A stretch of 32,562 bases of DNA from Planctomycetaceae bacterium (GCA_020426105.1 JAGQQS010000318.1:1-32562); one strand, 5' to 3'. Positions 1 to 17,056 are shown, numbered from the stretch's first letter. The notes: generated from the letters alone by a model not told the origin. Program-made: numbers and translations.

Positions 1-704
1 TCGATGCGACCGGCTCTGATCGCCAGCATCGCCTGGGCTAGCGCGACAAGGGACGAAGCACATGCCGCATCGATCACTGTTCGCGGACCGGTCAGCCCCA
101 GAATCCTCGCGGCGAGCGAGGCGGCCTGATACGCATGATAACTCGGCAAAGCGTCCGGACGGCGTGACGGTCGTTCACGGCGAATCGCACGTGCCACTTC
201 CATGACAATGTCGTGACGCATCCCGGCTGGCAGCTGTCGAAACGCGTCAATGTCATCAACAAAGGTCAACGCCTCTTCGATCTGCGTGCCCAGGCTCAGA
301 CCGCCGCCGGATTTTGTGCCGCCAGAGTGGCCGACATAAATGCCCGTGCCCTGCAGGCGGACGTCCTGAGGCAACAACTCTGCGTTTCGCCATGCGGTCG
401 CAGCCACCTCTGCGAACTGCAAATGCGTCTGGTCGAACAGGCTTTCCGTCTGTTCTGACAGAGGGCAAAGCATCCGATTCAGAGGACGTTCCGGAACTGT
501 GCCTCCGAGCGTCGTATAAGACTTCCCGGCTTTACCTTTGTTCGGGTCAAAGTACAAAGTTCGATCACATCGATCGGCAGGCAACTCAGCGTAGCCCGTC
601 TGGCCGTTGAACAGGAGCTGAGCAAATGCATCGACACTGTCTGCACCTGGCACGCGACATGCCATGCCAACAACCACAATCGGAGATAACCGCTTATCGG
701 ACAT
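1..704 (-). CDS. Type I polyketide synthase, N-terminal ketosynthase domain (partial, cut by window edge)
   Basis: The frame is open from an ATG at 704 to the window edge, giving the first 234 residues. They read as a beta-ketoacyl synthase domain: an N-terminal strand with VVVGMACRVPGA (residues 10-21), a GIYVGHSGG segment near 121-129, and the nucleophile-elbow motif DAACASSL with the presumed catalytic Cys at 215 (the usual form is DTACSSSL). Ketosynthases condense an acyl thioester with a malonyl-type extender; the His residues and later domains (acyltransferase, carrier) lie outside the window. The start is supported by GAGG at 711-714, six bases upstream. The gene begins inside the last codons of the thioester-reductase-like gene (11-base overlap), so the two are probably translated together. 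A modular PKS, a PUFA/HglE-like synthase or an iterative PKS are all possible. Confidence 0.88.
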   Translation of the reverse strand, partial: MSDKRLSPIVVVGMACRVPGADSVDAFAQLLFNGQTGYAELPADRCDRTLYFDPNKGKAGKSYTTLGGTVPERPLNRMLCPLSEQTESLFDQTHLQFAEVAATAWRNAELLPQDVRLQGTGIYVGHSGGTKSGGGLSLGTQIEEALTFVDDIDAFRQLPAGMRHDIVMEVARAIRRERPSRRPDALPSYHAYQAASLAARILGLTGPRTVIDAACASSLVALAQAMLAIRAGRI

Positions 705-2277: not shown

Positions 2278-2565
2278 GAAAACGTATTTCTGAGCGACAA
2301 CTGATGAAGGAAAATTCGGATCGACGACCGGAACCGCAGCAGGAAACAAAGGGAAGATTTCTGCTTATGCTTCAACCGTCACTGTTTTCCGAAACCTCGT
2401 ATTGTGATGGACACAGCAAGGGACTACACCCAAAAAAGCGGATCACTTGTGAATCAACCGGCAGAAAACTCCCTGCCGTCGTCACATCGGGAATTCTGCC
2501 GTGCAAATCTCAATCCATGGGCTGAAAGTCGGTCGTTTGTACCGATCATGTCGGGCATGCTGGAT

Positions 2566-3789
2566 TCACTGCGGGCCATTTTCCGCTTCCCCCGTTTCAG
2601 AGGGAGCGGCTGTGGGTAAATCGGAGTCGGAAGCAGTGTCTTCCGGACTATTGAACAGTCCACTTGTATCCCCCGAGGCACCCCGTGAGTTCAATTCGTC
2701 CAGCACATCGTCCAGAGGCCGAGGCTGGCCCGAAGCAAATCCTTCGAGCAAAGCCTTGAAGGAATCAACCGGCAGTGAGAGACGAGCTTTGTGAAAAACC
2801 CCGGTCACGACTGGATTTGCGGGATACATGCCCAGCATATTCAGCTCACCAAAGCGAATGTGGGCGGCAATCACTGATGGCTGATGGGCCGACTTCGGAT
2901 CAGTTGTGTCCAGCAAATTCAATTCTGTTCGCCCTCCCGAAGTTGCGAATACCGCCAGCTTTGGTTCTGTTGGCGTCGAGTCTTTGAGGAGATGCAGAAA
3001 CAGAAGTTCATACTCCTGGTTCGCAGCAGACCTGGCGTTGTCGTTGTTTTTGCTGTCCAGCGTATACTGGAATGCCAGAATCATCGTCCGCGCCTGCTCG
3101 GGCTTTAAGTCGCCCTCCTTGTCCCAGTAAATGCCCAGCGTTCTGAGTTCTGACACCGACTTTGTAATCATTGCTTCCGCCAACGTCGTTTTCTGCGGAC
3201 TTGCAATTTCGACAAAAGCGGCACGTACCTGCGGCCCGAAAAACGGCTGACCGTCAGGCGTGTGATAATACACGGGCTGAATGGTCAACTGGTGATCCTT
3301 CAGATAGTTTTCGACGGCACCACGAATGACGCGGGGCAGTGCCGCTCTTGCAGCGGGATCAAGTGTCAGATTGATCGAAAAGGCCGACTGGCGTCCCAGC
3401 GCGCCGGAGGCTCCCGCTGTAGGGGCAATCAACGGTTGAATGACATCAATCCCGGGCTCAAGCAGGCTGCACGACAACTGCGAGCCACCTCGCCGAAACT
3501 CACGCCCCAGTTCGCCCCGTTCCCAGGGTATTGCTCGAACCACCGGGATCGAGCGCACCGCAGGGGCTGTAGGCGTCACCCCCGTCATCAGCAGCGTATT
3601 TGACATGGCAAGAACGGAACTTTCCGAATCTACCGAACCGGTCAATGGATCATCCATCTGCGAAGTCGATTCGAATTTGGAAATTGCCACCGGTTCAGAC
3701 AATACGTGCGACGCAACAACGCCTCCAGTCACAACGAATGAGAGAACCGTCAACGGCGCGAGTATCGTTTTGGACTGCATTTCTGCCAT
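2566..3789 (-). CDS. Secreted or membrane-anchored protein of unknown function
   Basis: I do not recognise this 407-residue protein. The N-terminus has a hydrophobic stretch after a short polar segment (TILAPLTVLSFVVTGGVVAS, about residues 7-26), consistent with a signal peptide or anchor, so most of the chain should be outside the cytoplasm. A low-complexity region to about residue 125 is followed by a soluble alpha/beta-looking domain (about 130-340) and a polar, Ser/Glu-rich tail. No catalytic motif is evident. The ATG at 3789 is chosen; a TTG four codons upstream is less likely and an ATG at 3780 is possible (AGGA lies just upstream of both). It sits between the polysaccharide genes and the PKS/reductase pair on the same strand, separated by roughly 290 and 350 bases, so it may have its own promoter. 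Confidence 0.6.
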   Translation of the reverse strand: MAEMQSKTILAPLTVLSFVVTGGVVASHVLSEPVAISKFESTSQMDDPLTGSVDSESSVLAMSNTLLMTGVTPTAPAVRSIPVVRAIPWERGELGREFRRGGSQLSCSLLEPGIDVIQPLIAPTAGASGALGRQSAFSINLTLDPAARAALPRVIRGAVENYLKDHQLTIQPVYYHTPDGQPFFGPQVRAAFVEIASPQKTTLAEAMITKSVSELRTLGIYWDKEGDLKPEQARTMILAFQYTLDSKNNDNARSAANQEYELLFLHLLKDSTPTEPKLAVFATSGGRTELNLLDTTDPKSAHQPSVIAAHIRFGELNMLGMYPANPVVTGVFHKARLSLPVDSFKALLEGFASGQPRPLDDVLDELNSRGASGDTSGLFNSPEDTASDSDLPTAAPSETGEAENGPQ

Positions 3790-4135
3790 GTTCCTGTGCA
3801 AGGTTGTATTTTTTGAGGGTCCTTCAATTCAGAACCCGGTCTCCGGGTGCAGACGGGTATTCCATCCGCCAAGGCGGCCATATGCCACATCGTTTTTCAG
3901 TTGAGCCCGATTTGTACTGAATTTTTGACATCAGGATCCCACGGCCCCATCCTTTCAATCACTCAAAAGTGTACACATGAACAACCTCAATCACTCTCTT
4001 CTCGAAAAGCACAGCTTGTTAAAAGCTGCGACGGACGAAAGATGCCGACGGCATTGATTCGTTAAACGGTGATTGCGATAACTGTCAGCAACCGGCGAAC
4101 GGGGTGCAATTTAAGAAGCACGCCTTTGGCTGCCG
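3790..4135. other. Intergenic region without a gene
   Basis: This 346-base stretch separates the polymerase-like gene from the secreted protein, both on the minus strand. It has two small hairpins: ACCCGG/CCGGGT at 3834-3848, in the leader of the secreted protein gene, and CAGCTT/AAGCTG at 4012-4028. I found no convincing promoter and no open frame with coding character. Confidence 0.5.
4007..4028 (-). terminator. Possible weak intrinsic terminator after the polymerase-like gene
   Basis: A 6-bp inverted repeat (CAGCTT/AAGCTG, loop of 5 at 4018-4022) is followed on the minus strand by CTTTTC. It lies about 110 bases past the stop at 4136. The stem is short and the T run is only four, so it is weak support for the end of the polysaccharide operon. 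Confidence 0.2.
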
Positions 4136-5533
4136 TCAGACGCGGGAGCTTATTCGCGACGATGAATAAGTTTCTGAAGTTGCAGCAATTCTGGCAGACG
4201 CGAGGCCGGACAGAATACCAAAAGTCCAGAGCAGCGGAAAACCAAAATCGTAGCTCATGAAGACAAGCAGGAGGGAAAAACCAGCCACAACGACCAGCAG
4301 GCAGGCAACGGCTCCTGGAAATAACTCATCCGGATTCTCCCGGTAAAGTGAAAATCCTGTCCCGATGGCGGTGAGAAAGAGGAGAAGCAGACAGGCACCG
4401 CCGATCCAGCCGAATCGCAGGGTCAGCAGGATATATCCGTTGTCAACCATCTTGAACAAGTTGGCAGACCTGAATTCGTCCTCCAAATTCGGGATTCTCA
4501 ATGGAAACCCCGTCGTGGCCTGTGTGCCGAATCCAAATGGACCGGCTTTCACCAGGATGTCACGGTAGACTCCAAGGAGATGCAGTCTGTAGCTGCTGCC
4601 AGAAGTAACGACAGCGCGGCCGTCGATCTCAATCAGACGCGGCTCGTCGCCCCCGCCCGACCAGCGACTTGCGGTATTCGTCACTTCGGTCGGGAATAGT
4701 GCAAACAGGCCGATCGCTGAGGCAAGGAACAAACCCAACGGCCATCTCGCGACCTTAAATCGCAGTGCAATTGTAATGCAGATTGTGAAGAGTACCGTCA
4801 GCACCGGCGTTCGTGAAACAGTCGATACTGTGCCAGCGAATGCGATAACGCCGGCAGAAAAGGTCATTCCGCGAATCTTCAATGACTTGACCGACTGCCA
4901 CATAGAGACGAGCCACGGCATTAAGACGGCAATCATCATGCCCAGGAAGATTGCATGCGTCGTCGGTCCGAACGCCCGCTTTAAACCGAGCCTTGAGGCA
5001 TGGCGATTGGCCAGTTCCGTGGGGCGATTACCAAAGATATATTCGAAGCAATTCACTTTCGTCAGGGATTCACAGCAGGACATAATTCCCAGGAACAGCA
5101 GGACTCCCACCGCCCACGGAGCAATCCATTTCAGATCATTCCGATCTCGGATTGCGTAACGTCCCGCCACATAAGGCAGAGCCCATTCTCCATACGCTCG
5201 AAACGGAAGGACTAAAGATGGTCCCGCCCGCCAGGCATCGGTCACAATATGTGAACACACGATCAAGGCAATGACGAAATCCAGAAGCGTGAGCGGCGAT
5301 AAGATTTTGCCTTGCGGATGCACCGCATAAGCAAACATGGTGACGACTGCAATGGCGGTACGAACGTTGCAGGAAATCCCAGCGTACTCCAGTCGCAGCC
5401 AAACGGGAATTACAAAGCTCAGGAGAATCGCCGGCGCAAGGGCTTCTGCGGGCCTTCGACGAACGAAGATCACAAGCCAGACAATAAGTATCAGACCTGT
5501 ACTGACAGCCCATCCGGTGATTCCGGAAACCAT
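4136..5533 (-). CDS. O-antigen polymerase/ligase-like membrane protein (Wzy/WaaL type), second copy
   Basis: The 465-residue product is very hydrophobic, with about ten or more membrane segments. It has a longer polar loop in the C-terminal half (about residues 300-375). That loop holds SSYRLHLLGVYRDIL, a GPFGFG turn and DNGYILLTLRFGWIGG, the pattern of the Wzy_C/O-antigen ligase family (Arg near a membrane edge, then an N-x-Y-L motif). Such proteins polymerise lipid-linked repeat units or ligate glycans in the periplasm. The ATG at 5533 has a GAGGGG box about six bases upstream. It is the last gene of the tightly spaced polysaccharide series, 40 bases after the sulfotransferase at 5574-6485. 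A second protein of this class lies at 8974-10272, so one may polymerise and the other ligate; sequence alone cannot say which. Confidence 0.78.
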   Translation of the reverse strand: MVSGITGWAVSTGLILIVWLVIFVRRRPAEALAPAILLSFVIPVWLRLEYAGISCNVRTAIAVVTMFAYAVHPQGKILSPLTLLDFVIALIVCSHIVTDAWRAGPSLVLPFRAYGEWALPYVAGRYAIRDRNDLKWIAPWAVGVLLFLGIMSCCESLTKVNCFEYIFGNRPTELANRHASRLGLKRAFGPTTHAIFLGMMIAVLMPWLVSMWQSVKSLKIRGMTFSAGVIAFAGTVSTVSRTPVLTVLFTICITIALRFKVARWPLGLFLASAIGLFALFPTEVTNTASRWSGGGDEPRLIEIDGRAVVTSGSSYRLHLLGVYRDILVKAGPFGFGTQATTGFPLRIPNLEDEFRSANLFKMVDNGYILLTLRFGWIGGACLLLLFLTAIGTGFSLYRENPDELFPGAVACLLVVVAGFSLLLVFMSYDFGFPLLWTFGILSGLASARIAATSETYSSSRISSRV

Positions 5534-5573
5534 GACTTACCCCTCGTCTTCTGCGTCACAGCGTGACAAAGCA

Positions 5574-6485
5574 CTATAGCCAGCCACTCAGATCTCGCCC
5601 AACGACCTCTGAGAGGAGCCTCACATCATCGCGAAACGCGTTCTTCAGTTCCAAAATCAGTTCCGGTCGCAGTGTCCTGCGAGCCTGTGGTTTCTGAAGA
5701 AACCGAGAAACAAGCTTCTGTCGAATCCCGTGCAGGCCAAGTCGCCAACAGGTATGCCGCACAGACATTACCGCTGGGCGCAGAACCCGAGGAGGTTGCA
5801 GCAGCAGCCGGTTAAGCCAGCCAGCGCGGACCGCGCGCGCGGCGTTAGTCACCGGAAAGTCAGTTCTCCCGTCGTCTTCCAGTTGCAGGAAATTCAGCGT
5901 GCCAAGGTAGCAGGCACGCGGATTCAGGCGAAAATCGTCCAGAAAGATGATATGGAGCTGTGATTCCGGGACGATTCTCCGGAGCCGCTGCAATTGACTT
6001 CCCAGCATTGCAACCTGACCATACAGAAGCTGCGCCGATGCCGGACAGGATTCCGGAATCCTCTGTCCGTTTGCCCGGGCTGACTGAGAACGCCAAGCCT
6101 CTTCGAAATCCAGAATATCATCTTCACCCAGTAATGCGAGCTCCATATGGAGGGCCGGAGCGAGCTCCACCGGATTGCGGAGCATAACAATAAATCTCGC
6201 AGCCGGCGCATACTCCAGGATTTTTGCAATCGCTGTACGACTCCAAAGATAGCCGGTTGACGCGTCCACGATCACTTTATGCTGGCTCTTCACACGGTCG
6301 AATAAACCCTCGTACTGCACCAGCGAGCAAAGCCCAAGAAATTTCGACTGATCAAACTCGTCCGCCCAGAATTCGGGCTCCTTCGGACGACAGACGAATG
6401 CATTTGGATGTTCCGAAAGATACGTGGCCAGAGCAGTCGTGCCGCATTTGGGAGCACCGATAATGAATGTATTTGGCTTCGCCAC
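5574..6485 (-). CDS. Sulfotransferase, glycosaminoglycan/heparan-type
   Basis: Predicted to move a sulfo group from PAPS to a hydroxyl or amine of a sugar. The 5'-phosphosulfate loop is at the very N-terminus, FIIGAPKCGTTAL (residues 7-19, Lys13). The 3'-phosphate motif is RFIVMLRNPVELAPAL (97-112, Arg103). In the family a Ser normally follows that Arg by eight residues; here the position is Ala111. The protein is 303 residues, a normal length, with a C-terminal basic helix region. The GTG at 6485 is preferred to the in-frame GTG at 6494 because AGGGGGTGAT (6490-6499) is one mismatch from the full anti-Shine-Dalgarno complement and sits four bases upstream of it. Position between another sulfotransferase and two polymerase-like genes implies a polysaccharide acceptor. 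Confidence 0.85.
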   Translation of the reverse strand: MAKPNTFIIGAPKCGTTALATYLSEHPNAFVCRPKEPEFWADEFDQSKFLGLCSLVQYEGLFDRVKSQHKVIVDASTGYLWSRTAIAKILEYAPAARFIVMLRNPVELAPALHMELALLGEDDILDFEEAWRSQSARANGQRIPESCPASAQLLYGQVAMLGSQLQRLRRIVPESQLHIIFLDDFRLNPRACYLGTLNFLQLEDDGRTDFPVTNAARAVRAGWLNRLLLQPPRVLRPAVMSVRHTCWRLGLHGIRQKLVSRFLQKPQARRTLRPELILELKNAFRDDVRLLSEVVGRDLSGWL

Positions 6486-6489
6486 TTCA

Positions 6490-6499
6490 ATCACCCCCT
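6490..6499 (-). promoter_or_regulatory. Strong ribosome binding site deciding a GTG start
   Basis: AGGGGGTGAT on the minus strand differs at one base from AGGAGGTGAT. It ends four bases before the GTG at 6485, with the GGGGG core eight bases away, and would overlap translation from the upstream GTG at 6494. This fixes the sulfotransferase start at 6485. Confidence 0.7.
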
Positions 6500-6539
6500 G
6501 ATTCCGCAGCGCGGAACGATGACCTGTGTAATGTTCACT

Positions 6540-7382
6540 TTACGAACGGATGGAATCCAGGGCCGCGGCCGCATTGAATCCGGCTTCATGCGGGCTGATG
6601 AATCGGGAAGTCCACGGAAATACGGCGTTGAACGCCTGCAGGTCTGCATCTGAAAAGTGTGCTTGCCAGTCACTCGATCGGGCCGAGCGTATGAATGACT
6701 GATTCTCTCCGGTTCGAGTCGGACGGTCCGGAGACTTCTGCTCTTTTTCCCGCATACGGTCTGGAGTGTTGTCAGCCAGTGCAAACGAAAGTCGTTCGTC
6801 ACTCACGTCCATCTTCAGGAACTCACAGATCCGCCGAAACCCGCCCTGAGAGTCGTCGAGAAGATCTTCGTAGCGAACCACCAGGACCCCGTACTGGCCG
6901 GATGCAGCAGCCTGAATCCAGGATTTTGTATGCGTTTCCCATGTTCCATACCCATCCACGCTTCCGTGCAGAAAGCGGTTCAGAAAATGACTGAATGGAT
7001 CACGGACACCCAGTTTTCGTCGTTCGTGATAGAAATATGAAACACAGACATCGCGCGGATCTCGCACCAGATAGACTGATTTTCTGTAGACCGGCCGGAA
7101 CCCCTCATGGGTTTTCAGCAGCCGCTCGCCCGAGCGCATTGACGCTGCGGACGAGTGATGACCGACCATGGGCACGAACTGGTTTCTGTTTCCCCACGCA
7201 TCCACAGGCCCATCCGCAAGCAGTGTTGCCAACACAAACTTAACCCACGTATTGCCGGATTTAGGATACGATGCCAGAAAATAATCAGTCGGCCGAAGTC
7301 CCCGATGCCGCCATGACATCAGTACCTCGCGCAGCGGCGTTCGCCGCATACATCGCCTCACGCGTGTCAGCATGCTCATCAT
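6540..7382 (-). CDS. Sulfotransferase, Sulfotransfer_1 (cytosolic/aryl) type
   Basis: The 280-residue protein has all the hallmarks of PAPS-dependent sulfotransferases. The 5'-phosphosulfate loop is YFLASYPKSGNTWVK (residues 34-48, Lys41). The 3'-phosphate motif is VYLVRDPRDVCVSYFYH (103-119, Arg107 and Ser115). A late SSDWQAHFS resembles the GDWKxxFT part of the RKGxxGDWKxxFT motif. It belongs to a different branch from the neighbouring sulfotransferase, so the two probably modify different positions or acceptors. The start overlaps the flippase stop as ATGA (7379-7382); a GGGAGG box at 7385-7390 lies two bases from that ATG and five from the next ATG at 7379, so either may be used. An in-frame TTG at 7514 would bury 44 extra residues in the flippase gene and is unlikely. 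Confidence 0.87.
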   Translation of the reverse strand: MMSMLTRVRRCMRRTPLREVLMSWRHRGLRPTDYFLASYPKSGNTWVKFVLATLLADGPVDAWGNRNQFVPMVGHHSSAASMRSGERLLKTHEGFRPVYRKSVYLVRDPRDVCVSYFYHERRKLGVRDPFSHFLNRFLHGSVDGYGTWETHTKSWIQAAASGQYGVLVVRYEDLLDDSQGGFRRICEFLKMDVSDERLSFALADNTPDRMREKEQKSPDRPTRTGENQSFIRSARSSDWQAHFSDADLQAFNAVFPWTSRFISPHEAGFNAAAALDSIRS

Positions 7383-8941
7383 GACCTCCCGAATCTCCCG
7401 GTCCGCAGAGTCGCAACACTCTGCAGCAGACAGGCCAGCAGTGATCTCCATTCCTGCAGGCTCAATGGAATAGTTGAAGAAACACCAAGGCGGGTTCTGG
7501 CGACCCAAACGCAAAGAAGATTTGACCCCGCAATGCTCAGCGCATACGACATTGCCATTCCCGCCACGCCAAACGACGGACTAAGCATCACCATTAAGCC
7601 GAGATAAACAGCGGCGGATAAACAGCGAATCATCATCAGCGGAGTCTGCATGCCACCAAGACTGAGACTCAACCCGCAACTTCCGCAGCCCAGAAAAACC
7701 ATCACACCGAGCATCGCAATCCGTAAAGCGTTCGTCCCTTCAGAAAAATCGGGGCCGTAGAATCCCAGAAAAACCTCCGGACAAAGCAGCAGAAACGTCA
7801 GGAATGGCAATGCGGTGACACACGCCAGTACGGCAGTTCCGGAAAAGGCAATCTGCAGCCGTCCCTTGTCATGTTTCGCATACAGCTCAGCAACAAACGG
7901 ACGGTACACAACGTTGGCCATCAACAGAGGCGCATTCATCAGAATGACGGCCTGCTTGATAACCGCAAATACAGCAACCTGCCGCAAATTAGCGAACATC
8001 GAAATAATCACCAGATCCAGATGTTCGTGAAACAGACCGGCAATTTCGTTCACACTCAGAGGAACAACCATCGAAAGCAACAGCCGAGCTGTGCGGAAGA
8101 ATTGAGTTCCGGAATCCGCGGGATCGGGACCGGCAGTTGTGAGCTGAGTGCTGTCCGGGATCGCCGGACGACCATCACCAGAGATCAGTCGCCTGAACCA
8201 TGGCAGAAAAAAGGTGGCACCAAAACCAGCGAGGGCGGTCAGCAGTGAGACCAGCCCGGCAGCACACCGAAAAAAAATCACGCGATCAACGGTTGAAAGG
8301 TTACCGGTGTCGGCACGCGGCATCAGCAGAAACGCAAGAAAGACCACATTCTCGACCAGGTTCCCGTTGCGACCACAGAAGGCCGATGCCAAAAAAAACC
8401 TGTCCGTAGCTCGAAAGACGTCGGACAGAATCACCGTGACGCCGGAGAAGATCGCTCCCAGAAAAATCCAAAGCCCGTATCGGTTGGCCAGAATCACTGC
8501 CTCGAAATGTGGAGGAATCACGCTGGCAAGCACAAACCCAGCCATTGCGTAGACAGAGAACAACAACACGGTGACGCAGACGACGGCAAACCCGGTAACC
8601 ATGGACAGCCTGCCGTTCGCTCCGCACTGATGACGCTTCAACAACGACAGCACGCTGGTGCCGACACTGCCGGAGACAATGGCTGAGAGACTCGTCGACA
8701 ATGCGATCAGAAGGGCGTACGCGCCGAATTCAGTCGATCCCAGACATTCGGGACTGGCGAGTACAGCCGACGTCAGTGCGAACGAGAGCATCGCACCGAA
8801 TCGACCGATCAGTGACCAAACGCCGCTGGAAAACAGCCTTTGCTGAAGCGACCGGGATTGTTGATGCGACACAGCCAATGGACCACCAGAGATTTCAGAA
8901 TTTCGTGCCACGATGCGACACAGATTTAACTTTGCCTGCAC
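7379..8941 (-). CDS. Polysaccharide repeat-unit flippase (Wzx-like, MOP superfamily)
   Basis: The 520-residue protein has about 12-14 predicted hydrophobic segments with short charged loops. Near the N-terminus it carries the SGVWSLIGRFGAMLSFALTS region typical of the MATE/Wzx/MVF group. A central cytoplasmic loop (about 255-285) is rich in Asp, Thr and Pro. Members flip undecaprenyl-linked oligosaccharides to the periplasmic face of the inner membrane. It lies between a polymerase-like gene and a sulfotransferase, 32 bases after the former and overlapping the latter by four. The start is uncertain: GTG at 8941 has no evident ribosome binding site. A TTG at 8878 or GTG at 8872, preceded by GGTGG, would remove about 22 polar residues and leave the first membrane segment intact. 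Confidence 0.82.
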   Translation of the reverse strand: MQAKLNLCRIVARNSEISGGPLAVSHQQSRSLQQRLFSSGVWSLIGRFGAMLSFALTSAVLASPECLGSTEFGAYALLIALSTSLSAIVSGSVGTSVLSLLKRHQCGANGRLSMVTGFAVVCVTVLLFSVYAMAGFVLASVIPPHFEAVILANRYGLWIFLGAIFSGVTVILSDVFRATDRFFLASAFCGRNGNLVENVVFLAFLLMPRADTGNLSTVDRVIFFRCAAGLVSLLTALAGFGATFFLPWFRRLISGDGRPAIPDSTQLTTAGPDPADSGTQFFRTARLLLSMVVPLSVNEIAGLFHEHLDLVIISMFANLRQVAVFAVIKQAVILMNAPLLMANVVYRPFVAELYAKHDKGRLQIAFSGTAVLACVTALPFLTFLLLCPEVFLGFYGPDFSEGTNALRIAMLGVMVFLGCGSCGLSLSLGGMQTPLMMIRCLSAAVYLGLMVMLSPSFGVAGMAMSYALSIAGSNLLCVWVARTRLGVSSTIPLSLQEWRSLLACLLQSVATLRTGRFGRS

Positions 8942-8973
8942 TTTGCCAGTGCAGTGTGCTTCGCGATTGACAG

Positions 8974-10272
8974 CTAATCCGCACAGAACTCGACTTGCTC
9001 CACTCCCAATAACGCAGACCCATGCACCAAATCACGGTCACGAGCGACTTCGAGCGGTCTGACATCGTCCGGCCACTCCCTGTCTTCGCTGTCACGAGAT
9101 TCCACAATCATGCCAATGCGCGCACCGGAGAGGGCGAAGATACGGCCCGCGAAGAAGAAGAACGGCCAGGCCGACTGTGCATAAACAATGACATTGTTAG
9201 TCAGTCCCGCCAGACAGAAGACCAAACCGAACGCAAACGAACAACACAGCGTCTCTTCGGCAACAGCATCCAATTGTTGTGACGAGAGCCAGACAAAACG
9301 CCTGAACCAACTGACCAGAAAGGTCAGAAACAGCCCGAGACCGACGATTCCGTGATTGACCAGGATGTACAGGTAAATGTTATGACAGTCGCGCAGTTCG
9401 GAATGCTTCTCGCTGAGTGAATGGGAAATAAAATCACCGTCGGCTCCCAGTCCTTCGCCAATCAGTTTCTGCAAAACAGTAAGATCAGAAATATAGTGCC
9501 CCCACACTGAGGCCCAGATTACGGATCGCCCCTGCGTATTTCGTTCGGAATATAAAGTTTCGTTCAGGTCAAACAGCAACATATTGTCGAGTCGCAGCAC
9601 CTCGGCCACGAAATAAACTCCGCTCACAAAAACCAGTCCGCTGACAAGAATCAGTCCGACGAAGACATCAGTCTTAAACCGCCGATAGACCTGAAACCAG
9701 ATGCTGAGAACAATCAGCGGGAAGATCAGATAGTAAATTCTTGCGTTGGACAGAAAAACCAGACCGGCAAGCATCAGGATGGCTGGAGCAACGACCCAGT
9801 CGGTCAGTCGATTTCTCGCCGCCAAAAAATAGATCACTGCACTTGTCAGGAAATAGGCGAGGTCTGTCTTAAAAAAGAATCCGCCCGCAAATGTTCGCGC
9901 AGCTCCCCACTGCAGAAATCCGCTTCCTGTAAACAGGCTCACCAGAATAGGAATCAGCAGCAGTGAGGACACAAGTGTCAGCCACCCGCTCAGGGGTCGC
10001 CGAACGTCGCTCAATGATCCGGCCAGCAACAGGACCGGCAATGTGGCCAGCTTGAGGAGGACGGTTAGTGTGGTGGAATCATAGTTTTCCGGGTCGCGGA
10101 TCGAGACGACAAGGAGGAGCACAAAGACAAGCGCAGAAGTCAGCATTAGTCTGTTAATCGGACGAATGAATAACAGAATAACCACCTGCAGCGAGGCCAG
10201 AACGGCAACACCAACAGAGACCTCTTTATACTGCCACAGGTAATCCGCTATCAGGCGCAGACTGAGAATCAT
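8974..10272 (-). CDS. O-antigen polymerase/ligase-like membrane protein (Wzy type), first copy
   Basis: The 432-residue membrane protein has about eleven hydrophobic segments. Its large loop (about 240-300) contains RNTQGRSVIWASVWGHYI, IGEGLGADGDFI and CHNIYLYILVNHGIVGLG. This Arg...G-x-G...H-N-x-x-L order is the signature of the Wzy_C/O-antigen ligase family, which joins lipid-linked repeat units on the periplasmic face. The last 45 residues are polar and probably cytoplasmic. The ATG at 10272 has GAGG five bases upstream, and the gene begins 15 bases after the WecG-like gene. Its sequence is quite unlike the other polymerase-like protein at 4136-5533. This copy, next to the flippase, is the more likely Wzy. 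Confidence 0.82.
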   Translation of the reverse strand: MILSLRLIADYLWQYKEVSVGVAVLASLQVVILLFIRPINRLMLTSALVFVLLLVVSIRDPENYDSTTLTVLLKLATLPVLLLAGSLSDVRRPLSGWLTLVSSLLLIPILVSLFTGSGFLQWGAARTFAGGFFFKTDLAYFLTSAVIYFLAARNRLTDWVVAPAILMLAGLVFLSNARIYYLIFPLIVLSIWFQVYRRFKTDVFVGLILVSGLVFVSGVYFVAEVLRLDNMLLFDLNETLYSERNTQGRSVIWASVWGHYISDLTVLQKLIGEGLGADGDFISHSLSEKHSELRDCHNIYLYILVNHGIVGLGLFLTFLVSWFRRFVWLSSQQLDAVAEETLCCSFAFGLVFCLAGLTNNVIVYAQSAWPFFFFAGRIFALSGARIGMIVESRDSEDREWPDDVRPLEVARDRDLVHGSALLGVEQVEFCAD

Positions 10273-10287
10273 CGGAACCTCTGCTTT

Positions 10288-11109
10288 CTAGCCGCGTTTG
10301 CCGACAACATAAGCTTTCCGTCCCAACGATTCGCGAAATATCTTTCGAACTAATGACGACAAGTAAAGACAAATAAACTGGATGTTCCTTACGGTGTAGC
10401 GATACGCCAGCCGACGAGGTTCCTGGCACAGTCGAAAAAACCACTCCAGTGAATTCTTCTGCATCCAGACAGGCGCTTTGCGTTTCGTCCCTGCCAAAAA
10501 ATCAAATGCGGCACCCACACACAGAAATCCTACCGGAGTCCGCTCCCGCATGCGTTGCGCAAAGAAACTCTGTTTTGGCGCTCCTAATCCTACAAATACA
10601 ATCCGGGCTCCACTGCTGAGAATCATTGATGAAACCTGCGCATATTCAGAATCCGTCAACTCGCGAAACGGCGGTGCATACATGCCAGCGATCCTGAGCA
10701 CAGGAAACTGCGCCAGGAGTCGGCTCTTCAGGAGATCAAGTGTCCGTTCGGTACATCCATAGAAGTACACGGGAATCTGTTCCGCGGCGGCCTCGCGAAT
10801 TACCATTGTCATTAAATCGGGACCATACACCCGGTCCGCCAGCCTGGTTTTACAGAGATGATTCATGGCCATGCGGACTGGATGTCCGTCGGGACACGCA
10901 CATTCAAAGCTATTGATCACTCCCGCTAATTCGGCCGACCGAACAGCCTGAACCAGAGGATCAACACTGATAAAATCCACGACAAAAGACTTGCAGCATT
11001 TTGCCGATTCGATAATCGCCCGCAGAGCCGAATGATAGTCAGTACAACTCAGGCGAATGCCAAACAGTTCCACCTTCTCCGGCCATTGGCAGCAATTGTC
11101 GTCTTTCAT
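10288..11109 (-). CDS. WecG/TagA/CpsF family glycosyltransferase (GT26)
   Basis: These enzymes add a sugar (for example ManNAc or a ManNAcA-type residue) to a polyprenyl-diphosphate-linked acceptor at the membrane. The 273 residues cover the whole family. CPDGHPV (72-78) contains the Asp equivalent to the proposed catalytic base (Asp74). RVYGPDLM (93-100), GLGAPKQSFFA and VGAAFDFLAGTKRKAPVWMQK-type motifs follow, ending with EWFFRLCQEPRRLAYRY. The C-terminal appendage is basic, as in membrane-associated members. The ATG at 11109 is preceded by GAGG, nine bases away. It lies 92 bases after the GT4 gene and 15 before the polymerase-like gene. The sugar donor cannot be told from the sequence. 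Confidence 0.88.
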   Translation of the reverse strand: MKDDNCCQWPEKVELFGIRLSCTDYHSALRAIIESAKCCKSFVVDFISVDPLVQAVRSAELAGVINSFECACPDGHPVRMAMNHLCKTRLADRVYGPDLMTMVIREAAAEQIPVYFYGCTERTLDLLKSRLLAQFPVLRIAGMYAPPFRELTDSEYAQVSSMILSSGARIVFVGLGAPKQSFFAQRMRERTPVGFLCVGAAFDFLAGTKRKAPVWMQKNSLEWFFRLCQEPRRLAYRYTVRNIQFICLYLSSLVRKIFRESLGRKAYVVGKRG

Positions 11110-11201
11110 TGCACTACACCTCTTACCCTCTCAATAATCCTCACACGTCCCGTCACGCTGCTGTCAGTTCGCCCGTCTTTAATCGAAAATTGCCGGCAGA
11201 C

Positions 11202-12422
11202 TTACATTTTCTGCGGAACCCGCTGTGCATCATCACACATGGATCTTCCAAATCCTATGGCTTTCTGATAGATCGAACTTAGCTGGCGAAAATTCTCATT
11301 CCGACCTCCGATCTGCTCATACGAGCGGCGTGCCGCCGCACGCATGGTCGTCCCAAACGATGCATCACTGAAAGCCCTTTCGACAACATCCGCCAGGTCC
11401 GCGGCATCCCCGGCTCTGAAATGCCAGCCGGTCGAGCCATCCTGCACCAGAGACAGCAAATTACCGATACCGGACGCAATTACGGGTGTCCCGCTGGCAT
11501 AGGCCTCAAGAATTACCAACGGAAAAACTTCATACCACTCTGACGGAACAATCAGACACCTGGCTGATTTCAGCAGATTCAAAGTCTGATCATTCGCAAG
11601 CTGACCAGTGAACTCAACAACAGGAAGATGTGCGGCGTCGGCCATCGCCTCGTGCAGCAGCGGACCGTCACCCACAATCTTCAGCGGCGGCGCGACCCCG
11701 CGATCTTGAAGAATCTTCCAGGCGCGAATCATCGTCATGATGCCCTTTTCCTGAGACATCCTGCCCGCGAAAACCGCATAGTCCCCGGAGCCAGCTCCCG
11801 GCTCAATGTTTTGTTCCAGAAAATTCGGCTTCACGTAAATCCGATCACCGGGCAGGCCTGATCGAATCAGCTCATCCCGCGAAAAATCTGTCAACGCAAT
11901 CCACGCCGCAATCCCATGCAGGTCGTTGTTGATCATGCGATGCAATGCGAGACTTGCAGCAGCCACCAGACTCTGACTCCGACTGTTGCGATAGCACCCG
12001 TGCAGGACGCCTTGCCATGAAAATCGCTGACCAGAACACTCGCAACAAACCCGGCTGTCTCGGAGAAAGAAACCATTCAAGCATCCCGCCAGCCGAAAAT
12101 TGTGCACAGATTGCACGACCGGAACTTTCTCGGAACGGGCGGCTCTGTAAATCGAGGGCGACAAGCCAGGCATCATATTTGTAATGTGAACAACATCGAC
12201 CCGGTGTTGCCGGATCAGCTCCCGGACTTCCCGATAAACTCCGGAATTCCAGAATGCCCGCGACGCTGCCCGAATTCTGCCCCGGTCAAGGATGTCGTGA
12301 TTGTGCTTCTCATACCGAATCACCTCGACATTGTTGCTTTCCAGCAAAGATGCTTCACGTTCGAATACCATATCTTCGCCACCACGATACTGGTAGCAAC
12401 TGTGCGCCATCAGGACTTTCAT
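11202..12422 (-). CDS. GT4-family glycosyltransferase
   Basis: A retaining GT-B glycosyltransferase of 406 residues. The N-terminal domain begins MKVLMAHSCYQYRGGEDM, with the glycine-rich donor/acceptor loop and a following VVHITNMMPGLSPSIY. The C-terminal domain has YAVFAGRMSQEKGI, then FTGQL, and the E-x7-E signature in SEWYEVFPLVILEAYASG followed by GTPVIAS. These bind the nucleotide sugar. The start is ATG 12422 because GGAG (12429-12432) lies six bases upstream; the in-frame ATG at 12434 and a TTG at 12527 lack such a signal. About 255 bases separate it from the initiating transferase gene, with nothing coding visible between. It would extend the lipid-linked glycan made by that transferase. 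Donor and linkage are unknown. Confidence 0.87.
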   Translation of the reverse strand: MKVLMAHSCYQYRGGEDMVFEREASLLESNNVEVIRYEKHNHDILDRGRIRAASRAFWNSGVYREVRELIRQHRVDVVHITNMMPGLSPSIYRAARSEKVPVVQSVHNFRLAGCLNGFFLRDSRVCCECSGQRFSWQGVLHGCYRNSRSQSLVAAASLALHRMINNDLHGIAAWIALTDFSRDELIRSGLPGDRIYVKPNFLEQNIEPGAGSGDYAVFAGRMSQEKGIMTMIRAWKILQDRGVAPPLKIVGDGPLLHEAMADAAHLPVVEFTGQLANDQTLNLLKSARCLIVPSEWYEVFPLVILEAYASGTPVIASGIGNLLSLVQDGSTGWHFRAGDAADLADVVERAFSDASFGTTMRAAARRSYEQIGGRNENFRQLSSIYQKAIGFGRSMCDDAQRVPQKM

Positions 12423-12428
12423 CGGAGT

Positions 12429-12432
12429 CTCC
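12429..12432 (-). promoter_or_regulatory. Ribosome binding site choosing the GT4 start
   Basis: GGAG with a six-base spacer to the ATG at 12422. It overlaps the alternative ATG at 12434, so it can serve only the downstream start. Confidence 0.55.
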
Positions 12433-12677
12433 ATAACAACGATCGCTGATTCGATCTCAACAAGCTTAAACGCATGAACCGAAAGCAGAACACCGCTCGT
12501 CCGACATTTTCGATCGAGCGGCTGCAATCCTGGCCACGACAGTTCCTGCGATCCTGAGGGCTACAACGCGCCATATTTCCCGCCTGGACTCACCCAGCTG
12601 ATTTCCAGAAGCCAGGCACCGCAGTCTGCACGGACACATCGTCTGGCAGCCAAGCCCCGTCGGTAACGTCACAACAC

Positions 12678-14231
12678 TCAACAACTACCCTCCCGCGTCA
12701 GAACCGTCCGCACGGTTCGAAGCAGGATGAAATAATCAAGCCACAGCGACCAGTTCATTGAGTAGTAGGTATCCAGCCGGACTTTGTCGGCAAAGGTCGT
12801 GTTGTTCCTGCCGCTGACCTGCCATAACCCGGTCAGACCGGGCCGCAGTCTGAGATAGAGAGGATAAAGCTCCCCGTACATTCTGATTTCGTCCATCGTG
12901 TAGACCGGTCTCGGACCGACCAGACTCATTTCGCCGATCAATACATTCCATAGCTGCGGAAGCTCATCCAGACTCGTTCGACGCAGGAATGCCCCGACAC
13001 CCGGAATCACCCGTGGATCATTTCTTAGCTTGTGAAACTCGTCCCATTCCGCACTTGCTGCCGGATTCGCCGACAGATACTCAGTCAGCACTTTCGATGC
13101 GTCGGGGACCATCGTCCTGAACTTCCAGGCACCGAAGGGTTTACCCGACCGTCCGATTCTCCGATGTTGAAACAGAACATCACCATTGGACTTCATTCGA
13201 ACCCAGACATAAATCCCAAGGTAGACCGGCAGACATAAAATCAGCAGCAGCGAGGAAAGAACGATATCCATCAATCGTTTGGAATGGCGCTGAAAAGGAA
13301 AGAGCATTCGATCCCGAATATGGACCCCGGCCAGGCCTGCCGCATCGAAAGAATCCGGCCAGATCGTAGGCATCGAAAGCAGGGAATGAATGACCACAAG
13401 GTTTGGGATCAGGCTTCCGCGAGAAAGTATTTGCTGACGCTCAGGGGTGTCCATTTCAGCAACAGCCGCAATGACCCAGTGGCATTGTTCCTTACGACAA
13501 ATGCTCACGAGCTCATCTATCGTTCCCAGAAAGTCGAACGAACATTCCTCTCCCAGTCGCCAATAGTTGCTGGGACTGTCATCAACAATTCCCAACGGTT
13601 TCAATCCGCGTTGCGGATGACTTCGCAGAAATTGATAAACCGAAAGTCCCTGCGGATTACTTCCGACAATGATGACCTTTTCGCCCCACCAGCGGTAACG
13701 AGATACGATCCGCCGTGTGCAAAAACGAGATGGAGGGGCCAGCGCAAATGTCATTGGGAATGCGATGGCGATTGTCAGGATTTCATTGATGGTCACTTCA
13801 CCCAGCAATCCATTCAGTGCAATCAGCAGCACAAACGATATGCTCACTGCTGAAATCTGGCTGCGGAGCTCCCTGACAGGATTCATGCCTGAGGCTGGAA
13901 ACAACCCGAGGAAAAAGCCAACCATCAGGTAACACACACCAATCGCAAACAAATTGTTCCAAAGCCCGGAATAGTGCCGGATTCCGATGAACACATGGGT
14001 GCATACCGTCGCCGACAGATACGACACGGAAATCGCCAGCAGATCGGCCGCAATCAGTGGCATCGACGTCAGTACGGCCTGACGGTAGCGGGAAACCGAA
14101 TCCGCTCTGGTTGTTAAACGATCAGTCGACTCGAAGCCTTCGAGAACAGGCCGTCCCGGCACGACGTGCGCTAATGTCGATACCGCGTCCGTCGAAATGA
14201 GCGGTTGTATCAAACGCGAGGGGCTCGCCAC
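12678..14231 (-). CDS. Polyprenyl glycosylphosphotransferase (initiating sugar-1-P transferase, WcaJ/EpsZ-like)
   Basis: This enzyme starts a repeat unit by moving a sugar-1-phosphate to undecaprenyl phosphate. Of 517 residues, the first half has about four membrane segments and then a Rossmann-like CoA_binding_3 domain ([19 protein letters not shown]). The catalytic bacterial sugar transferase domain follows a last hydrophobic hairpin ([20 protein letters not shown]). It shows [48 protein letters not shown] and [15 protein letters not shown] chose GTG 14231 because AAGGA (14239-14243) sits seven bases upstream; the GTG at 14297 would add 22 residues with weaker support. It heads the minus-strand polysaccharide series, opposite the plus-strand export genes. 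Confidence 0.9.
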
Positions 14232-14243: not shown

Positions 14244-14696
14244 GTGAAAACACTGTCGTATGCAGCAACTTCGGAGTACGTCTGGTTTGCCGACCACGAT
14301 ACACGGCCTGCGACCTGGAAAAATGAAAATTTGGTTGTCGCCCTCGAAATTTCCCGATTCAGACAGCGCTCACAGCGGGGCCGCCGCCGCCACGCCTGAA
14401 TTTCCGGCATGTTCAGCCAATTCAAGGGCATTTCTCGCAAATTGAATGTATTCAGACGTCCACACATTAACGACGGTCCCATCAACTTCGTGACTCTGTG
14501 CCGAATATACGGATTACACCCGAAATCACTGTTGCGTCGGATACAGTCAGTTTTCGTCTCCTGCGAGTTCCAGCAGTCACACCAGTTATGCAATCCGGCC
14601 AATTTCGCAAGTTGAAATCCTGTTCGCGTTAATACCATCGGGTCACGACTCCGCCTGGCGCTGGTCGATGTTGCTGATGTTCATTTTTCGAGAAAC

Positions 14697-14701
14697 AGGA
14701 G
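14697..14701 (+). promoter_or_regulatory. Ribosome binding site choosing the lipoprotein start
   Basis: AGGAG, eight bases before the ATG at 14710. It supports that start over an in-frame ATG at 14668 and puts the lipobox at a normal distance from the N-terminus. Confidence 0.7.
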
Positions 14702-14709
14702 TCTCGGCA

Positions 14710-15501
14710 ATGTGGAACAGGATTGTTTCCAAACAACATCTGGGTACGGCTGCGATGATGCTGGCCCTCTCGGGCTGTACAGCACTCAGTGACTGCAAAT
14801 ACGAAGTTGGGCAGAAAATTCGTACCCAGCAGGCATGGCATGAGTTTGACGGCTGTCACAACCAGTGCTTCACGTGCGACTACAGTACGGGCTGGAAAGC
14901 CGGGTTTTATGATGTCGCGACCGGGGGGGATGGCTGTCCTCCGGTGATCGCACCGAAAAGGTACTGGAAGCCCCCGGTCTTCGTCGAATACGACCCTGGT
15001 CGGCGAGATGACTGGTACAGAGGCTTTCAGGATGGAGCGGCGTACGCCAAATGCCAGCCCGATCATCACTATCTGAAAACATTCCTTCCCCCGCGTACAT
15101 GCTGCCCGACACACATCGTATCCCACTCAACAGTTATGGAACCGGACTCAGGACTGTTGCCGGAGTATGTTGAGAGCCTGCAAAGCTTTGATATTGTTGC
15201 CCCTGAAACGCCCGCTCCCGTTGAGCCAGCGGCACCGGCACCAGCGGCACCGGCACCAGCGGCACCGGCTCAGCCTGCTGTCGAGCCAGCGACAGAGAAC
15301 AGCACGCCGCCCGTGGAGGGCGGTTACGAAGATGATCCGGCTCCCGAGAATAACCAGCCCACATCCAAAGTGAATTCTCCTCTGCAGCAACAACTGGTAC
15401 GACAGTATCAGGCGCAGCAGCAGGCGAACTCCATGCGGGCGTCATTGCTCGAGCAGTTGGTAATCAATGCCGGGCAACCTTCGCACGACAGCGAATTTTA
15501 A
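14710..15501 (+). CDS. Cys-rich lipoprotein of unknown function linked to polysaccharide export
   Basis: The 263-residue protein has a lipoprotein signal, MMLALSGC, with lipidation at Cys23. The mature N-terminal half is rich in Cys, Trp and Tyr (FDGCHNQCFTCDYSTGWKAG, then a second half-repeat WYRGFQDGAAYAKC and RTCCPTH) and may be disulfide-stabilised. A Pro/Ala-rich linker follows (about 170-198, three PAAPA-type units), then an acidic stretch and a Gln-rich C-terminal helix. I do not recognise a named family, though the GWKAGFYDVATGG pattern has the look of a conserved domain. It lies 169 bases before the Wza-like gene on the same strand, so a periplasmic or outer-membrane role next to the export channel is inferred. 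Lipid attachment and secretion are well supported; the function is not. Confidence 0.72.
   Translation: MWNRIVSKQHLGTAAMMLALSGCTALSDCKYEVGQKIRTQQAWHEFDGCHNQCFTCDYSTGWKAGFYDVATGGDGCPPVIAPKRYWKPPVFVEYDPGRRDDWYRGFQDGAAYAKCQPDHHYLKTFLPPRTCCPTHIVSHSTVMEPDSGLLPEYVESLQSFDIVAPETPAPVEPAAPAPAAPAPAAPAQPAVEPATENSTPPVEGGYEDDPAPENNQPTSKVNSPLQQQLVRQYQAQQQANSMRASLLEQLVINAGQPSHDSEF
15229..15273 (+). repeat. Three tandem 15-bp units encoding a Pro/Ala linker
   Basis: The unit GCGGCACCGGCACCA occurs at 15229-15243 and 15244-15258, and in changed form (GCGGCACCGGCTCAG) at 15259-15273. It keeps the frame of the lipoprotein and codes for Ala/Pro steps of a flexible linker. In-frame length change between strains would be easy. 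Confidence 0.85.
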
Positions 15502-15657
15502 ACCATCTCGCCTGCCCGCCGCCTGAATCTAATGTTTCCCGAACACCATCAGGGTTTCGTCACTCGCAACGGCAGGAAGGCCGATGCGAGGTAAACCGGG
15601 ACCATTTTTAAATTGAAGTTGAACTCACAGTTCCGCCGCATTGGCAGGTTCTGATTC

Positions 15658-15662
15658 AAGGA
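15658..15662 (+). promoter_or_regulatory. Ribosome binding site choosing the Wza-like start
   Basis: AAGGA, eight bases before the ATG at 15671. It lies inside the frame extended from a TTG at 15641, so the shorter protein is preferred. Confidence 0.65.
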
Positions 15663-15670
15663 CGATACGA

Positions 15671-16987
15671 ATGAACGACACATCCTTTTCCCGAAATCTG
15701 GCGTCACTCGTCTTGACCAGCTTCGGGGCGCTGACATTGGTGTCTTCCGTCGGCTGCCATGCCATCACGGATGTGCACGAATCAATCCCGGCGAACCGAT
15801 TGCCAAGGGAACTCTGCACAGAGCCGCGTGAAGGACGAACTGTTTTTCCATTCACGGCGCTCGGGCAGGAGAAACCTGCAGCGCACGTCATTGATGCCGG
15901 TGACCAATTGAGCATCTACGTGTTTGGGGTCATCCCGCCGGGGACAGAAGAGACGACGGTACTTCAACGAACTCAGCCCGTCAACCAGCGTTACTATCCG
16001 CCGCACGGTAGTGTCGTCGGAGCCACCATTGGATTGCCGTTCGAAGTAGATCACGCGGGCGGAGTCGAATTGCCGTTGATCGGCCGTGTTGAACTCGCCG
16101 GACTTACAATTCCCGAGTCCACAGAGATGATCAAGAAGGCCTATCGAGACAAGAATATCACCAAAGAAGACACAGAGCGTGTGCATGTGTCACTCATCAC
16201 AGCAAGAGTCCACCGAATTGTGGTGCTCCGTGAAGACACACCTTCGACTCCCGTGCAACTTGTAAAACCCGGACAGGTCGATCACATTCATCGCGGGTCT
16301 GCCGACGTCGTGGATCTGCCCGCCTACGAAAATGACCTGCTGCATGCACTGGCCGTCACGGGTGGTCTGCCGGGAACGGATGCGGCTCGGGAAATTTGGA
16401 TCTTTAAACGCAGCGGACTGACGGATCCTCACGCGATTTGTGCTGAAGAGCTTCAGGCCAGAACCGCGGATTACGTGGATGGTTGTGAAGCCAACAGTCA
16501 GGTGGTGAGAATTCCACTCACCGGATGCCCGGGAGAAGGACTGCCGTTCACGCAGGCTGACATTCAACTTGAAAATGGCGACGTGGTCTTTGTTCCGCGC
16601 CGCGAAGAATACTTCTATATCGGCGGCCTCGTAGCTGGCGGAAAAATCCCATTGCCACGAGATGAAGATATCGACGTGATCGAGGCCGTGGCTCTGGCAA
16701 ACGGATCAGTAGGCGGCCCGCTGGGACAGTCAGGTCAGGCTTTGGCTCAGGGAACTCCCGGTCACATGGTGCGACCAACACGAGTGATCATTCTGAGAGA
16801 AATGCCGGACGGACGACAGCTGCCAATTCGAGTTGACCTTGCCCGCGCCATGACCGATCAGAAAGAACGTATTCTGATCCAGCCCAACGACGTAGTAATG
16901 CTGCAGTTCAAGCCAGGGCAGGCAGTCTTCAACGGAGTTGTGAACATGTTCAACTGGAGCTTCCTGATTGATCCGTCGAAGTTCTAA
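15671..16987 (+). CDS. Polysaccharide export lipoprotein, Wza-like (Poly_export/SLBB)
   Basis: Wza-type proteins form the periplasm-spanning, outer-membrane channel for polysaccharide. The 438-residue product has a lipoprotein signal ending LVSSVGC (Cys29). The Poly_export domain begins HVIDAGDQLSIYVFGV (about 76-91) and continues with VELPLIGRVELAGLTIPES. Two SLBB-type segments follow: NDLLHALAVTGGLPG with IWIFKR, and EYFYIGGLVAGGKIPLP with DVIEAVALANG. It ends NWSFLIDPSKF, with no clear C-terminal amphipathic helix like that of E. coli Wza, so how it crosses the outer membrane is open. It follows the Cys-rich lipoprotein and is closed by a strong terminator at 17019. Its co-polymerase partner is the converging gene at 17157-19511. 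Confidence 0.9.
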   Translation: MNDTSFSRNLASLVLTSFGALTLVSSVGCHAITDVHESIPANRLPRELCTEPREGRTVFPFTALGQEKPAAHVIDAGDQLSIYVFGVIPPGTEETTVLQRTQPVNQRYYPPHGSVVGATIGLPFEVDHAGGVELPLIGRVELAGLTIPESTEMIKKAYRDKNITKEDTERVHVSLITARVHRIVVLREDTPSTPVQLVKPGQVDHIHRGSADVVDLPAYENDLLHALAVTGGLPGTDAAREIWIFKRSGLTDPHAICAEELQARTADYVDGCEANSQVVRIPLTGCPGEGLPFTQADIQLENGDVVFVPRREEYFYIGGLVAGGKIPLPRDEDIDVIEAVALANGSVGGPLGQSGQALAQGTPGHMVRPTRVIILREMPDGRQLPIRVDLARAMTDQKERILIQPNDVVMLQFKPGQAVFNGVVNMFNWSFLIDPSKF

Positions 16988-17018
16988 TCCAGAGCCTGAA
17001 CGGTCACAGATTCACAGG

Positions 17019-17056
17019 AGCCCGGCTTTTCAGTAAAGCCGGGCTTCTCTTTTTTG
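17019..17056 (+). terminator. Intrinsic terminator after the Wza-like gene
   Basis: An 11-bp perfect stem (17019-17029 with 17035-17045, seven G:C pairs) and a five-base loop are followed by TCTCTTTTTT. It lies about 30 bases past the Wza-like stop, between converging genes. The T run is on the plus strand only, so it serves the export genes. Confidence 0.9.

Follow-up and report, generated by a model that had tools for sequence, protein, structure and literature searches.

A Wzx/Wzy-type locus with two sulfotransferases in a planctomycete: a candidate for the synthesis of a sulfated exopolysaccharide

Introduction

Does a member of the planctomycetes, bacteria known as degraders of sulfated glycans and studied almost only as their consumers, carry the genes to make a sulfated polysaccharide of its own? 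The question is raised by a locus in a stretch of 32,562 nucleotides from a Planctomycetaceae bacterium (GCA_020426105.1, JAGQQS010000318.1), the whole of which is called the window here. The original prediction, drawn from the sequence alone, described eight tightly spaced minus-strand genes at 4136-14231 as a Wzx/Wzy locus with two unrelated sulfotransferases of different branches and a candidate sulfated exopolysaccharide as its product, and proposed HMM searches (Sulfotransfer_1, Sulfotransfer_3) and a comparison with syntenic loci of other planctomycetes. It also held that such polysaccharides are little described in bacteria, a view that is outdated given the xss genes of synechan, wps-1 of Actinoplanes, the capsules of Vibrio and Cobetia, and Pontiella, all of which are compared with the locus below.

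Results

Organization of the locus

All eight ORFs are present on the minus strand and are transcribed in the order PGT, GT4, WecG-type, WzyB, Wzx, STB, STA, WzyA (Table 1). Their predicted roles as an initiating transferase, two glycosyltransferases, a flippase, two polymerase-like proteins and two sulfotransferases are supported by Pfam/NCBIfam models, the flippase by homology and fold. The 4-base overlap claimed for the sulfotransferases is real (ATGA, 7379-7382, between STB and Wzx), as are the short gaps around them, and intergenic gaps in general measure 15-92 bp; the exception is the 255 bp between GT4, from its likely start at 12422, and PGT, which makes the wording "tightly spaced" slightly generous. 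Similarly, the limits 4136-14231 do enclose the eight genes but leave out the OPX and Wzc genes, which are parts of the system. Glycosyltransferases number only three in the locus, PGT included, and nucleotide-sugar genes are absent from it. The protein downstream of WzyA gave zero Pfam matches, and promoter and terminator scans of the window gave no meaningful excess over shuffles.

Table 1. Genes of the locus and its surroundings, in order of transcription for the operon, with the main evidence for each.
Feature	Coordinates	Strand	Evidence
PGT, WbaP-type polyprenyl-phosphate hexose-1-phosphate transferase, initiating enzyme	12678..14231	-	TIGR03022 WbaP 433.5 bits (above cut-off); Bac_transf 5.5e-61
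GT4 glycosyltransferase, cassette gene	11202..12422; alternative start 12527 (TTG)	-	Glycos_transf_1 2e-28; similar to XssI
WecG/TagA/CpsF-type glycosyltransferase	10288..11109	-	Pfam 9.9e-52; 29% identity to XssN over 245 aa
WzyB, cassette-specific polymerase-like membrane protein	8974..10272	-	Wzy_C 1.3e-6
Wzx-like MOP-superfamily flippase	7379..8941	-	Homology to Polysacc_synt flippases; fold model
STB, SULT-type (Sulfotransfer_1) PAPS sulfotransferase	6540..7382	-	Pfam 6.3e-32; motifs; PDB SULTs 3e-24
STA, Sulfotransfer_3-type, predicted PAPS sulfotransferase, XssA / heparan-sulfate 3-OST side	5574..6494	-	Pfam 1.9e-10; motifs; PDB 3rnl and 3-OSTs
WzyA, conserved polymerase- or ligase-like membrane protein, last in operon	4136..5533	-	Wzy_C 4.6e-7; orthologues in relatives
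OPX exporter	15641..16987	+	Poly_export 7.5e-11; orthologues 71-83% in 6 congeners
Wzc-type polysaccharide co-polymerase / tyrosine autokinase	17157..19511	-	Wzz, AAA_31; TIGR01007 144 bits; adjoins OPX in congeners
Small lipoprotein-like protein, likely accessory	14668..15501	+	Co-conserved with OPX at every syntenic congener locus
hyp2566, uncharacterised secreted-type protein downstream of WzyA, possible accessory	2566..3801	-	Homologue (253 bits) adjoins WzyA in genus g16, genome G080

Flippase and polymerase-like proteins

Three hallmarks of a Wzx/Wzy locus are found here: an initiating transferase above the cut-off of the WbaP model, Wzc together with OPX, and a flippase of MOP fold. The latter has no Pfam match itself, and is recognized by its homology to flippases of other genomes that Pfam assigns to Polysacc_synt, as well as by an AlphaFold model (pLDDT 75) that Foldseek matches to the MurJ, MATE and WzxE folds in the PDB (E 4e-8). 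The two Wzy_C proteins of the operon score 30.2 and 28.7 bits, slightly below the Pfam cut-off of 31.7 bits, which orthologues of WzyA in relatives exceed (39.4, 32.4 and 53.0 bits); a fold model of WzyA built from four sequences (pLDDT 51) is too poor to separate a polymerase from a ligase. Searches of 391 other planctomycete and 394 other Bacteroidota genomes gave no match to WzyB. Its only relative is a 31% identical protein of Carboxylicivirga linearis (Bacteroidota), whose gene lies in a locus with WecG and Wzx, 3 kb away from an STB-type gene. This linkage was considered as proof of coupling between STB and WzyB and rejected; it is suggestive only, because there is one such locus and polysaccharide genes cluster anyway.

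The two sulfotransferases

The proposed HMM searches assign STB to Sulfotransfer_1 and STA to Sulfotransfer_3/1. STB has the 5′-PSB loop SYPKSGNTW, the catalytic His92, and Arg107 and Ser115 of the 3′-PB, all of which show little or no variation among 41 homologues. STA, whose closest structures are the bacterial sulfotransferase 3rnl and then heparan-sulfate 3-O-sulfotransferases, keeps the 5′-PSB loop GAPKCGTT (GxPKxGTT; G13-T20), the pair Lys38-Glu39 with its catalytic Glu, and Arg106 of the 3′-PB, and has Ala114 where most sulfotransferases have the 3′-phosphate-binding Ser. The parts played by these residues in PAPS binding and catalysis are assigned from what is established for the SULT and 3-OST families. 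Since Ala or Gly occupies the same position in the nearest homologues of STA, across families, Ala114 would be a trait of the clade rather than a sign of decay; with the Ser missing, it is membership of the family that suggests PAPS as the donor of STA. Neither enzyme has a predicted transmembrane segment, hence both would be soluble and cytosolic, in the compartment of PAPS.

BLAST and phmmer detect no homology between STA and STB, and the two sit on separate, well supported branches of a tree that joins very long branches and in which the placement of XssA and XssE is unsure. The different branches of the original prediction therefore stand, but "unrelated" is too strong for two enzymes of one P-loop sulfotransferase superfamily. 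STB has no homologue of comparable strength in 198 relatives, and its homologues in Acidobacteria often form tandem arrays without exopolysaccharide markers, so that such a gene is by itself no sign of an exopolysaccharide locus. In 4 of 15 relatives, a homologue of STA and an initiating transferase are no more than 10 kb apart (chance about 0.9% each, P ~7e-6), and in several more the STA homologue adjoins a flippase; some STA homologues of relatives (L128, L133) have no polysaccharide marker nearby.

A conserved frame with an exchanged interior

Orthologues of OPX, with 71-83% identity, mark the same locus in six congeners, and in five of them it is adjoined by a syntenic PGT orthologue (56-59% identical), with which the operon starts; the remaining one, G014, has the exporter and no PGT at the locus. 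WzyA (46-57% identical) is last in the operon in G005, G004 and G015, its position being counted where the contig reaches, and the contig stretches examined in G006 and G017 do not show it. Between these ends, G005 has a GT2, a cytidylyltransferase, an FkbM methyltransferase, a second Wzy_C protein, a pyruvyltransferase, an MBOAT and a GT4; G004 and G015 have a second Wzy_C-like protein and a GT4; G006 has a pyruvyltransferase, FkbM and a GT4. Congeners with a fully covered interior thus have two Wzy_C proteins, one constant to the locus and one variable. At the thresholds applied, congeners gave no counterpart of the window's flippase, STA, STB or WzyB.

Variation of this kind from PGT to WzyA is what serotype-type loci show. 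In genome G080, of genus g16, the order is hyp2566-WzyA ... GT4-STA-GINT1_N-Wzx-STA-PGT-Wzc, where two STA-type genes flank the flippase and the GINT1_N protein within the same frame; a WzyA orthologue in another genus is 34% identical. The proposed comparison of syntenic loci therefore bears out a shared OPX locus in six congeners, its interior swapped where an operon is present, and, in another genus, a matching locus with two STA-type enzymes, which together place the sulfotransferases in a serotype-like variable cassette of an exopolysaccharide locus.

Genomic context

The source assembly is a fragmented metagenome-assembled genome (6.96 Mb, 1258 contigs, 86.6% complete), and its planctomycete affiliation is read from proteins with the typical domains PSD1, PSCyt1 and PSCyt2, found by domain search. 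Sulfate-activation genes are indeed absent from the window, as had been noted, and are encoded elsewhere in the genome: ATP sulfurylase (Sat) on contig C707, and APS kinase split across two contig ends (C384 and C530). Judging by these genes, the two enzymes can supply PAPS. The same genome has a second polysaccharide locus (C260), with the order Wzc, GT, STB-type gene, Wzy, GT, in which the STB-type paralogue overlaps Wzy by 4 bases.

Discussion

The results of this work make it likely that the locus is a sulfated variant of an exchangeable planctomycete exopolysaccharide or capsule locus, the sulfotransferases of which would sulfate a lipid-linked unit ahead of its flipping, polymerisation and export. 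The candidate status originally given to the product is well supported by gene content, by conservation of the locus, by the genomic PAPS genes and by the finding that another genus has sulfotransferases in its matching locus. With two such enzymes in the exchangeable middle of its Wzx/Wzy operon, the host probably has a sulfated polysaccharide coat, of the kind made by a few cyanobacteria and proposed for an actinomycete. In such a pathway PGT would load hexose-phosphate onto undecaprenyl phosphate, and GT4 and the WecG-type enzyme would extend the lipid-linked unit, different positions of which STA and STB, as soluble cytosolic enzymes, would each sulfate using PAPS made by the genome. The MOP flippase would then turn the sulfated unit over, unit-specific WzyB and/or locus-constant WzyA would polymerise or transfer it, and Wzc and OPX would set the length of the polymer and export it. 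Weighing against this reading are the low number of glycosyltransferases, the absence of nucleotide-sugar genes and the failure to find an STB homologue of comparable strength in 198 relatives. We infer, then, one glycan as the target of both sulfotransferases, modified at different positions ahead of flipping, and a secreted sulfated polymer as the product.

The strongest challenge to this last point is that the glycan could be a sulfated O-antigen, or another glycan anchored to lipid or protein, instead of free exopolysaccharide, with WzyA as the ligase and WzyB as the polymerase. Such an interpretation overlaps with the one preferred here, from which it differs in the final carrier, and it draws on the presence of one constant and one variable Wzy_C protein in the fully covered congener loci, on the inclusion of ligases in Wzy_C, and on the weak resemblance of WzyB to a putative O-glycosylation ligase model. 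However, OPX and Wzc in the locus are typical of exported exopolysaccharide or capsule, and we regard an anchored product as rather unlikely, if a serious contender.

Less probable still is that only STB sulfates the glycan, STA being inactive, weak or a transferase of a different group owing to its altered 3′-phosphate site. The substitution at position 114 speaks for this, even if shared by the nearest clade, but the Lys-Glu catalytic pair, the P-loop and Arg106 are conserved, and the STA clade persists across planctomycete families beside Wzx and PGT genes, which is unlike a decaying gene. It could also be argued that the true substrate of the two enzymes is a lipid or a small molecule, their place in the operon being incidental, as the best PDB relatives of STB are SULTs acting on small molecules, and the SULT fold is common to enzymes with such substrates. 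Bacteria do have glycolipid and Nod-factor sulfotransferases (PMC8205485). Yet STA and STB both lie between polymerase and flippase genes in an operon whose interior is free of genes for lipids or natural products. Sulfotransferases are also encoded at the homologous locus in another genus, as well as in the second Wzy locus of the same genome, all of which makes this explanation quite improbable. Finally, an assembly artefact or contaminant contig, for which the fragmentation of the assembly and the missing cassette genes in congeners might be taken to speak, is hardly credible when OPX, Wzc, PGT and WzyA, which include both ends of the locus, have clear congener orthologues in the same order on one contig, and the swapped interior in a conserved frame places the sulfotransferases within a native locus.

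Seen as a sulfated exopolysaccharide locus, the system has its nearest known parallel in the xss genes of Synechocystis (PMC8205485; pSYSM, NC_005229), which are also of Wzx/Wzy type and also combine two sulfotransferases of distinct subfamilies with an initiating transferase, a WecG-type transferase and a PCP. PGT is 42% identical to XssP, the WecG-type enzyme 29% to XssN and GT4 28% to XssI, and STA falls, with weak similarity (E 2e-9), on the side of XssA. STB, however, has no detectable similarity to XssE, so orthology does not extend to both sulfotransferases; nor do the flippase and WzyB show any to xss proteins. There are eight glycosyltransferases in xss against three here, regulators XssQRS are not seen in the planctomycete locus, OPX lies inside the latter and outside xss, and the chemistry known is that of synechan. 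On these comparisons the locus appears to be of the same design as xss, with partial homology and without orthology throughout. Synechan has 2 sulfates per eight sugars (PMC8205485), and by analogy with this ratio a pair of enzymes suggests that the planctomycete unit is sulfated at two positions.

Maeda et al. (2021) stated that no other bacterial cluster was known to hold two sulfotransferases (PMC8205485). Since then wps-1 of Actinoplanes missouriensis has been described, a Wzx/Wzy cluster whose two sulfotransferases come from different families and are each required for sporangia to form normally, and for which a sulfated product is proposed (PMC13390465); the two-sulfotransferase Wzx/Wzy design is therefore already published. 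The likeness of wps-1 to the planctomycete locus is one of description, its enzymes being of the Gal/GlcNAc/GalNAc and heparan-sulfate types, and it differs in its Gram-positive host and in including GH26, kinase and methyltransferase genes. The capsules of Vibrio sp. KMM 8419 and Cobetia marina KMM 1449 have chemically proven sulfate and sulfotransferase genes in the polysaccharide cluster (PMC11641403, PMC11766843), but they depend on ABC transporters, and their clusters include the genes for PAPS synthesis, where the planctomycete has Wzx/Wzy and PAPS genes elsewhere. Closer in phylogeny, within the PVC superphylum, the putative sulfated-GAG cluster of Pontiella sulfatireligans has a sulfotransferase among glycosyltransferases and a measured sulfated EPS (PMC7356697); it holds one sulfotransferase, and is again likened to the planctomycete locus by description. 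No literature joining planctomycetes, sulfotransferases, Wzx and Wzy was found, a result that says little about subscription journals.

In conclusion, the two-sulfotransferase Wzx/Wzy design now has a planctomycete example. It is possible, although we propose it only tentatively, that planctomycetes also make sulfated glycans from a serotype-like locus, in which the PGT and WzyA ends, OPX and Wzc would stay constant and the inner cassette would be swapped, the acid group being sulfate in some species and a pyruvate ketal in others, with WzyB and STB belonging to a laterally acquired cassette. Should these two travel in one such cassette, it would hint that the polymerase recognises the sulfated unit. 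Each of the enzymes can be tested separately, and the congener loci, with their other decorations, offer a natural comparison for what sulfation does.

Related loci and gene neighbourhoods

The two Wzy_C proteins of the window are one constant (WzyA) and one variable (WzyB), and such a pair is also found in the loci of three congeners of the source (G005, G004 and G015). For WzyB itself, no relatives beyond the Carboxylicivirga linearis cluster were found among the approximately 800 genomes searched. A locus of a Bacteroidota MAG, L057, has sulfotransferases of three branches, namely Gal-3-O/Sulfotransfer_2, Sulfotransfer_3-like and Sulfotransfer_1.

The source genome carries further sulfotransferase loci, and in one of them, L114, the sulfotransferase matches the STB of the window at 35% and its gene overlaps that of the Wzy by 4 bases. 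At the flank of the window operon, the protein adjoining WzyA is without Pfam match, and its homologue in another genus (253 bits) adjoins WzyA there too. A strong terminator-like hairpin, with 14 pairs and a T run, lies 3′ of the exporter gene OPX.

Coordinates of the features and loci compared
Locus	Positions	Feature
Window	2566-3801	protein adjoining WzyA
L148	13997-15223	its homologue
Window	4136-5533	WzyA
Window	8974-10272	WzyB
Window	17016-17048 (plus strand)	hairpin
L044	8653-17069	C. linearis cluster: relatives of window Wzx, STB, WzyB, WecG
L057	3105-6634	Bacteroidota MAG: three neighbouring sulfotransferases, GT2 close by
L114 (G000:C260)	1-6235	second locus, source genome: Wzc end, GT4, STB-type sulfotransferase, Wzy, GT
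L115 (G000:C436)	1719-12647	further glycan locus, source genome: MBOAT, XssA-side sulfotransferase, two MocA oxidoreductases, GTs
L131 (G096:C39)	1008-7376	gene cluster, planctomycete of the same family as the source

In L131, an STA-type sulfotransferase is surrounded by homologues of three synechan proteins: XssF, which is the Wzy (123 bits), XssH, which is the Wzx (308 bits), and the GT2 XssB (140 bits). This cluster is nearer to the synechan xss cluster than the window locus is.
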